From Diprion similis (taxonomy: Eukaryota > Arthropoda > Insecta > Hymenoptera > Diprionidae): DNA of 64,000 nt. The notes under the pieces are model-generated. The model was not told where the DNA came from and did not search any database. It saw only the letters and a list, made by a program, of their open reading frames with translations. The stretch is taken from positions 10,547,501 through 10,611,500 of the forward strand of contig NC_060106.1 of assembly GCF_021155765.1 (NCBI RefSeq), in the 5' to 3' direction. A program made the translations under genes and the position numbers. Positions 54,201 through 60,735 of this stretch are shown one piece after another. Numbering within the stretch: position 1 is the first letter of the stretch; every line of letters begins with the position of its first letter.

Positions 54201-57200
54201 GCAATTGGGTTAATGGTTGCAGTATGTTTGGAAGGATTTATGGACAGACGTCAAACCAATAGCTTCGACGAGCTCTAGTTTGATCTCGAATACTCCGAAG
54301 GAGAAAGGTACTTCTACTATTTGTCAATTTCGAGCTTTGACTTCGATAAATACCGTCGGATTATTCTAGGCCCCCATAAAATATATTTACGCGTTGTTTG
54401 ACATCAAAGAAGGACTTGTTATGACAGAGCGCATCTTTTTTTCGCGTGTCATCTCTCGGTGCTCAAGTTGGTCGTTTCGCCGGGCAGAATTGCAGACCAG
54501 CCCGCTCTAAAATCAGGGTCGACGAACCTGCGAAAGTTCTTTTTGTTTAACGGAAATTCCCGACATTAAGACACGCGCGGATGGCGAGTGCTTGGGTATT
54601 GAATCTGGCGTGACTTATTACTCGCGAAACTTGCAGACGCTAACCTGTGAAATCCTATGTACAAGTTATTTCAAGCTCGGAGATCGGCAGCTAATTTTTC
54701 ACGATGTTCAAGCGGGTTGAAGAGCTGCTAAATCATTGTCAGGATTTACTCGCAGATGAGAGTTGTGTCAAGCTAACTTGCCGGGCGACGCGACGCTGTT
54801 CGTTTCTTTCGCTGGGCTGACGGTCGGCACGTAAAAAGTCTCAAAGTCGACCGGGTAAAAATACTGCGAGAAAATAAGCAACTTCAAGAGCCAGGGCAAC
54901 GATCTTTGCTCGGGTTGCACCGAGAGTTTGCCATCGTGAATGACGTTGCACCTCGAGGGATTCAGATGGGATCGAAACGATTTCAACCCTATCGTTCCGG
55001 TCTGTCGAACTTTGGTCGAAGAGAAAGCTTTGGATTGTTTCACGTTTAAAAATAATGTTTGATTCTCCGTTCTTCGTTATAAGAAAGTATACATTATACA
55101 CACTTCTTGTTTTTTTTACGGCCAGATTTATTGCTCCCCATTTTGATCTATGACACGCGTGAGTCAGTCAATGTACCGGCCGACTCAACGTCGGCGAAAA
55201 ATCAATAGCCGCTGGAAATCAGCACGTGTATACCGAAAACAAATTCCACCTATCGGATGCTGCGGATGAGTTTATAGTCGCAGTATTTCATATTTCTTTA
55301 CGGTTGCACAGGCGGTATAAATTTGAGTTTCGGTTGCCGTTGCAGAGAAAAGTCAGTGGTTATTAATAGCGGAAGTAGCATTAGTGAAGCGAAGCTTTCC
55401 TGCTGCGAACTCAATGTCGTTAATCAATTCTTCGAGGACGAGCCGACATGCTGAGGCTTTGTTTGGTGTTTTTTGTATCTTAGGTTTCTGTTTCTAGTCG
55501 GTAACTGATTCCAAAAAGCAAAGAAAAATCGACAACTGTCGCGCACGGTGGATCGTCAGAAGTCCATCAATTATCTCAACACCCCGATAGCTTGTCTGTT
55601 ATTGTTAGGAATGTTATGTTCTATGGTTGGATATTTATAGAGAGTCGCAAATAGCTCGGACTGAAATAGTTTTTAAGCACCGAGTTACGCCGAGTCAACG
55701 ATCTAACCATGCCAAAGATTTATCTCTTTGGCAATGCGACGTTTTTACGAAATACCAAAACCAAATTCGACTGGAAATTTTCAGATGAGTCAACTCACTT
55801 TGCGGACTCGGCGTGTTCCACGGCCTCAACGATGTCTCCGACGGTGACCGAGACTCCATCCTCTCCTTCGGCCGTGTAATCTTTGATCACCACATAGTGC
55901 TCCGAGGAAACCTGAAAAATCGAGAATTACATTCTGCGTCATTTGGCAGAGGCCAGTCCCAACAAGTTTAGTCTGAGACAAAACTGTGCTTAGCTATACT
56001 CTACGTGAGAAAAGAGTCAAACCAGTGGTCCGGACGTGGGAGAAACGTTTTTTTTTTTTGTCAAAATTATTGGCTACTTCCAAGTATTTTACGCACGAAT
56101 TCTGTCTAGCATCATTACCGACTCGCAGCTGTTGTTGGGGTGGAGAGTGCTGAGTCTTCGGAAGCTAGGGGTATTTTCTCTACTAGCCGAATACCCTCCG
56201 TACTGTTCCGACCTCGAGAGGCTGACTCCGCTAGTTTCGTGCCTGATCCCGTTTGTCATTACCCCTTCCAAGCTGCTCGCAGACGTTGCAGAAATGGTCC
56301 CGGTTACAGTCGATACCATTTCCGTATCTCCGTCTTCCTCGCGAGCAACCGGACAGCAATACATTGAAAAGCGATGTGCCGTCGGCCTGCTCAAACGCAG
56401 AGCAGAAAAGACGTGCAGAGGTTCGAAGTGGCTGATACCATCCTCGTCGAGGACGGTGTACGACACCTGTCCAGTGAGGACGGCCCTGGACGCTTCCCTG
56501 GGAACAACAGCCTGCATTCCCTGTTTCAGAATCATGAAAATAGCGGAAGGCCTGTGGCTTCTCTTCAGGAGAAATTCTTCCATAGCCAAACTGTTCTCGG
56601 CGTGAAGTAGAGCGGTCGGTACATCGGCTGATGACTGAAGCGGCGCTTCTTCGGGAACTATCATGAGGGCTGCGCTCTCTCTAACGAGTGCTCGAAGACG
56701 AGGGTCGGACTTGGCCAATTCTGGATCGCTGCATAAGTCCCCGAGGGCTCTGCTGAACTGTGGTCTCTGTTCAGCAAGTTGTCGCATCACCGTGAGTCGC
56801 TTCAAAATGTCGACGGTCATTCGGTCGCCGGACAACGCTTCGGTGGATTTATTGTCAGAGATCACTGCCAGCAGGCTCGAAGCAGTTGAAGACATTCCGA
56901 GTGCTCTGGCGAGGCCGACTGCTTGCAGTATCAAGTCACGGACTTTGGGGCCGTCGTCGTTCAGAAGTTCCCGAACTTTGAGTTCGCTGGATTCTCGTAC
57001 CGCATGGACAATCGCTCTGTGTACCGTCTCTATAGCCTCTTTTTCTGTAATCACACCAGCCGCATCTTCCGATACTTTTCGTAGCACCCTTGAGAGTAGA
57101 TCTGGATTATTTTTTGTCACGGCCCTAAAGGCGGCGCCCACTAAGTCACTGCCATCCTCGTCTTCCAGTACGGCCGATAGTCTCTCCAGAACAACCTCGT

Positions 57201-60735: not shown

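Follow-up and report, generated by a model that had tools for sequence, protein, structure and literature searches.

The window, a 64,000-nucleotide stretch of Diprion similis DNA (contig NC_060106.1, positions 10,547,501 to 10,611,500), harbours on its minus strand a long repeat-rich exon just upstream of the obscurin (Unc-89) gene. The coding sequence of a long insect obscurin isoform probably begins with this exon, which would be spliced in phase 0 to the SH3 exon via a weak and probably regulated donor. The isoform would carry about 1,500 additional N-terminal residues, consisting of a CRIT head, a charged stretch, two FVPGQ-type beta-repeat blocks, a probably helical region and, leading into SH3-RhoGEF-PH, a linker rich in Ser and Arg. 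Judging from the sequence, the module is probably an optional N-terminal part of insect obscurin. The coordinates of all the features are given in Table 1.

Table 1. Features of the long exon and of the downstream obscurin/Unc-89 gene (positions in the window)
Feature	Position	Strand	Remarks
Predicted N-terminal module of Unc-89/obscurin, 1,539-codon exon, 167 kDa	56119..60735	-	ORF, translation
Three CRIT motifs, residues 4-24, 34-54 and 63-83; third diverges most	60487..60726	-	
Charged stretch, residues 204-263, 57% D/E/K/R	59947..60126	-	Weak a/d heptad signal
Repeat block 1, F-[VIML]-[PAQE]-G, 17 units, 3 exact FVPGQ	58645..59421	-	
Repeat block 2, 10 units, 7 exact FVPGQ; beta strands predicted	57976..58395	-	Mean pLDDT 68, 3-row alignment
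Probably alpha-helical region, residues about 1002-1379	56599..57732	-	Very low-confidence model only, mean pLDDT 36
Short, probably beta-rich segment, residues 1417-1462	56350..56487	-	Very low-confidence model, as for the helical region
Ser/Arg-rich linker, reaches the splice donor	56119..56295	-	
Alternative phase-0 donor GAAGGG/GTAATG (4.5)	56257..56262	-	Would lose the last 48 codons
207-bp intron	55912..56118	-	Weak donor GTAATG (3.5), strong acceptor (9.8)
In-frame stop for a retained intron or a separate gene	56089..56091	-	
SH3 first half exon	55799..55911	-	In-frame TAA 55929-55927 ahead of the acceptor; no ATG before the domain
Candidate 54-codon exon with DUF4592 motif	52864..53025	-	Acceptor 7.9, donor 10.4, phase 2 at both ends
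SH3 second half exon	51169..51300	-	
RhoGEF start exon	50900..51070	-	
Rest of Unc-89: PH, Ig/Fn3 array, PK1, Ig-Fn3-PK2	25261..50899	-	

The obscurin gene downstream of the long exon

According to its domains, the gene downstream of the long exon is obscurin/Unc-89, with SH3-RhoGEF-PH, an Ig array and two kinases. The exons 55911-55799, 51300-51169 and 51070-50900, when joined, encode the SH3 domain and the start of the RhoGEF domain. Pfam searches with the translations of hand-joined exons matched SH3_2 (2.9e-8), RhoGEF (1.3e-6, at positions 1-52 of 180 only) and SOS1_NGEF_PH (1e-22). Moreover, I-set was matched in one ORF (3e-135) and Pkinase in two ORFs; a 31-residue RhoGEF-like fragment had no Pfam match. 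The best PDB chain for PK1 was 8ak2, named Obscurin (3.9e-59), which we take to be the fly protein. A non-Ig part of Unc-89 (35229-36269, minus strand) contains imperfect repeats of the type TDLPxPETPxVExSKLxRQSSKxE.

The SH3 exon starts four residues ahead of the Pfam SH3 match. As it offers no ATG ahead of the domain and is preceded by the in-frame TAA, an intact SH3 domain needs an upstream phase-0 coding exon. The original prediction gave 5,778 amino acids for the product of the long exon joined to this gene. That total was not reproduced; automatic models reached 4,357 and 4,390 amino acids downstream of the exon, lengths that include exons taken for spurious.

A candidate exon lies between the two halves of the SH3 domain (53025-52864). 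The second automatic model kept its donor and chose a worse acceptor, at 53042. The candidate matched DUF4592 (PF15262) with 27.4 bits, barely over the cut-off of 27.0, at profile positions 98-120 of 124, and in a DUF4592 search of the genome it was the only match found (27.2 bits). The candidate might serve as a cassette exon within the SH3 domain or as an alternative first exon (ATG at 53021), or it might belong to a nested gene. DUF4592 is linked to CRACD/KIAA1211. Here, the match to the family profile is sited inside the SH3 part of Unc-89 and no gene of its own was seen; obscurin and DUF4592 were not found together in the literature search.

The long exon and its FVPGQ-type repeats

The minus strand is open from stop to stop for 1,581 codons (60834-56089). 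Its first ATG is at 60735, and from there to the donor (56119) the frame runs for 4,617 bp without a stop, as expected for the predicted 1,539-codon exon. The three CRIT motifs announced for the N-terminus were also confirmed, starting at residues 4, 34 and 63. Between pairs of motifs, ungapped identities were 12, 6 and 9 of 21 residues, and the best pair (12) compares with at most 8 in 300 shuffles. The coiled coil found no support in a crude heptad test: L/I/V/M occupied no more than half of the a/d positions of the charged stretch (residues 204-263), and higher values were obtained near residues 367-435. A linker lies between the charged stretch and the two repeat blocks.

About 30 F-V-P-G-Q units had been predicted. 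That figure was loose: we counted 27 units of the form F[VIML][PAQE]Gx (block 1 has 17, block 2 has 10), and 10 of them are exact FVPGQ. Unit starts are 14 or 15 residues apart in 22 of the 26 gaps, and self-identity at a lag of 14 was 0.287, compared to a maximum of 0.132 over 1,000 shuffles. F and G are present in 27 of 27 units by construction of the search pattern; at positions that the pattern left free, 20 of the 27 units have Q5, 19 have T9 and 21 have G12.

Tandem Repeats Finder revealed no tandem array at the DNA level. Differences in the motif codons amounted to 0.885 at synonymous and 0.054 at non-synonymous sites in block 2 (9 units, starting after residue 789), and to 0.884 and 0.202 respectively in block 1 (17 units); choosing units by their motif lowers the non-synonymous figures, making the high synonymous divergence the safer argument. 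Outside the motif the contrast was smaller (0.669 vs. 0.455 in block 2 and 0.756 vs. 0.561 in block 1, synonymous and non-synonymous respectively). Since there is no DNA tandem array and the motif differences are mostly synonymous, the FVPGQ-type repeats look old and constrained, with their protein sequence kept.

These observations also bear on whether the stretch is an assembly artefact, or decayed or non-coding DNA. We found nothing in favour of this, the ORF being merely unfamiliar, and it is hardly conceivable given the 1,581 open codons, a window free of N, repeats that differ mostly at synonymous motif sites and the single copy found in the genome. No second copy was detected among the best candidates scored in the species' own genome, where matches fell only at the locus (1, 1 and 4, all inside the exon); the C-terminal part of the product was covered within one of these own-genome searches only.

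The structure of the repeats was modelled. The block 2 model, built from three aligned rows, showed regular strands (mean pLDDT 67.9), while the other models had values of 34.6-64.6, with three of the five below 40. No convincing fold match was obtained. Residues 431-925 contain 13.7% G, 12.1% V, 10.7% P, 9.3% T, 7.5% E and 3.6% K. The conserved F, V, P, G and T positions, together with this medium-confidence model from a shallow alignment, point to a structured beta repeat rather than a disordered spring, a reading that we hold with medium to low confidence as three of the five model versions were poor. At that level of confidence, the "spring-like" character originally considered for the module was not supported.

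A 340-codon open frame runs antisense to the repeat blocks (57439-58461, plus strand) and probably just reflects the repetition of codons. Elsewhere in the window, a Gly/His-rich low-complexity frame (9516-9869, minus strand) is overlapped by a 205-codon plus-strand frame (9256-9873).

The junction with the SH3 exon: one gene or two

The long exon ends in the phase-0 donor tcg/GTAATG after 56119, and the acceptor tttttcag/GTT places the first base of the SH3 exon at 55911. The phase-0 donor predicted 207 bp ahead of the SH3 exon is thus present. Phase and acceptor fit the SH3 exon and the donor is weak; that this splice is used, we infer. On untrained matrices of the general splice consensus, the donor score of 3.5 was equalled or beaten by 12% of the 3,526 GT on the minus strand. 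The 26 Unc-89 donors picked by hand as supported, from 43 in the second automatic model, all scored at least 4.4, none being as weak as that of the exon, whereas in the whole model 10 of the 43 were as weak as 3.5, most of them in exons taken for spurious. The 17 donors left out (10.4, 10.4, 8.0, 6.7, 6.5, 4.8, 3.8, 3.4, 3.0, 2.9, 2.5, 2.4, 1.4, 0.7, 0.5, 0.4 and 0.3) belong mostly to exons in the SH3 and RhoGEF introns that were taken for spurious. Two of them, 29191 (3.4) and 28392 (3.0), lie in the ill-resolved kinase part and, if they are real, the donor of the long exon is not the weakest of the gene.

We read the junction, from its sequence, as optional or regulated. The actual splice donor may rather be 56262, one of five phase-0 donors inside the exon that score above 3.5 (56262, 56466, 57000, 58140 and 59319). 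In the last 144 nt of the exon, between the terminal donor and 56262, the three frames scored 9.7, -7.0 and -15.3, with frame 0 the best. The coding z of this segment was 1.4 (base shuffles), below the 2.0 of the stretch in the intron itself, and its coding score was dropped as support.

One gene might also make two products. Intron retention would end the frame at the stop 56091-56089 and yield a free protein of 1,548 residues, while splicing would yield the obscurin fusion; alternatively, inner phase-0 donors would give shorter modules. The weak terminal donor with an in-frame stop right after it, and the higher-scoring phase-0 donors at 56262, 57000, 58140 and 59319, are in line with this. 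So is the variation of N-terminal isoforms between muscles: in passages of PMC9886281, the SH3-RhoGEF part of fly obscurin was stained in flight muscle and not in larval muscle, which has no SH3-RhoGEF form. Consensus scores alone, however, do not show donor use, and we consider two products unlikely.

The original prediction had left two options, an N-terminal module of Unc-89 or a separate gene lying directly upstream. In the latter case, a one-exon gene would end at 56089 and be polyadenylated within the introns of Unc-89 that follow, or beyond them, and SH3 would be supplied by another first exon, either very short, split into several small ones or located beyond 70.5 kb. The weak donor fits this organisation, as does the frame, which reads past the donor for nine codons to a stop. 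The GC3 of the long exon (0.56), higher than that of five Unc-89 ORFs (0.38-0.53), also favours two genes. Between the stop and 54,900, where AATAAA and ATTAAA were the sole signals searched, there is one AATAAA, at 55132, that a separate gene might use; it is beyond the SH3 exon, and no such signal precedes that exon, which is only 207 bp away.

Candidate leaders for the SH3 exon were searched in the upstream 60.84-70.48 kb. The minus strand has three stretches that open with an ATG, span at least 15 codons and end in a phase-0 donor scoring at least 3.5, and none of them reaches 40 codons; the opposite strand, used as a control, has 11 and 3 respectively. When leaders of only 2 codons were allowed, there were 8 candidates (19 on the control strand), and these very short leaders would suit a separate gene. 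The 9.6 kb searched upstream thus contained no convincing substitute with 15 or more codons for the first coding exon ahead of SH3, which leaves room for leaders below 15 codons, multi-exon leaders and leaders beyond 70.5 kb.

A separate gene is therefore unlikely, and the N-terminal module of Unc-89 is the option that fits better: the SH3 exon supplies no start codon for the domain, there is an in-frame stop upstream of it, and 9.6 kb contain no convincing leader of at least 15 codons. Our confidence in one gene, and in the long form proposed below, was lowered by the low z of the coding score, by the candidates for short leaders and by the donors left out of the comparison.

Further features were observed upstream of the exon. 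A 95-codon open frame (62248-62532, minus strand) includes an ATG-led stretch of 34 codons (62397) with a weak phase-0 donor at 62295 (3.8), and is possibly a leader or promoter region. The nearest ORFs of at least 200 codons upstream of Unc-89 are on the plus strand, at about 70867-73314 when the numbering of the window is continued past its end. MEF2-like sites were dropped as a sign of a muscle promoter; the window has 20 of them vs. 11.0 expected, two being upstream of the exon.

Relatives of the module and comparison with known obscurins

The product of the long exon matched no family of Pfam-A or NCBIfam at E values up to 10, with filters that drop most matches above about 0.1. Against PDB sequences, the best E value was 0.88 for the product and 0.81 for the repeat profile, both taken as chance. 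In viral contigs, the whole product had no pattern match, the N-terminus had 2 and the repeats 28, none of which was confirmed; in genome contigs, the N-terminus had 27 pattern matches, again none confirmed. The contig collections searched were viral, bacterial and archaeal, and absence from them is uninformative on insects.

A text search of the papers covered did not find FVPGQ, FIPGQ or CRITGK. CRITGR appeared only in a single crop-modelling paper and VPGQVV only in two on proteomics, work that is unrelated according to titles and the beginnings of abstracts. A module before SH3 is not mentioned in the passages available from PMC9886281, PMC12812942, PMC10129394, PMC6005683, PMC9820631 and PMC4805545. 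Of these, PMC9820631, on bumblebee flight muscle, gives 97 peptides of obscurin in its table.

If the exon is part of obscurin, a 167-kDa module stands ahead of SH3-RhoGEF and the insect domain layout, as given in the available passages of the cited papers, is incomplete. It would also provide a new repeat family to study and a handle on the positioning of the SH3-RhoGEF end in this core protein of the M-band. The module might act as a folded rod-like scaffold, or as a targeting arm with a binding head, and not as an elastic spring; in the muscles whose obscurin includes the module, such an arm would target or space the SH3-RhoGEF end at the M-band. We tentatively propose, as a possibility slightly short of an even chance, a long-form obscurin with an undescribed module of about 1,500 residues, a new family of beta-forming FVPGQ repeats of 14-15 residues, a switch based on a weak donor and, for the SH3-RhoGEF end, a second arm that is not known from fly, worm or vertebrate obscurins.

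In UNC-89 of C. elegans, a short Ser/Arg-rich stretch comes ahead of an SH3 domain that lies close to the N-terminus. The Ser/Arg-rich linker that would precede SH3 in D. similis may be alike in this respect. We know of no C. elegans UNC-89 layout with a long repeat module before SH3.

Drosophila obscurin/Unc-89 (UniProt A8DYP0, according to passages of PMC10129394) shares SH3-RhoGEF-PH, the Ig/Fn3 array and two kinases with the gene described here. By contrast, in the passages available from PMC9886281 and PMC12812942 fly obscurin begins with SH3-RhoGEF; its forms start with SH3-RhoGEF or are devoid of it, and a 1,500-residue module is not mentioned, which counts against the one-gene reading.

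The PEVK region of titin/Sallimus, likewise long and repetitive, is part of a giant protein of the sarcomere, as the exon product would be. However, PEVK is described in passages of PMC9886281 as flexible and rich in Pro, Val, Glu and Lys, whereas the exon product has a regularly repeated unit in which F, G, V, P and T are conserved and beta strands are predicted.
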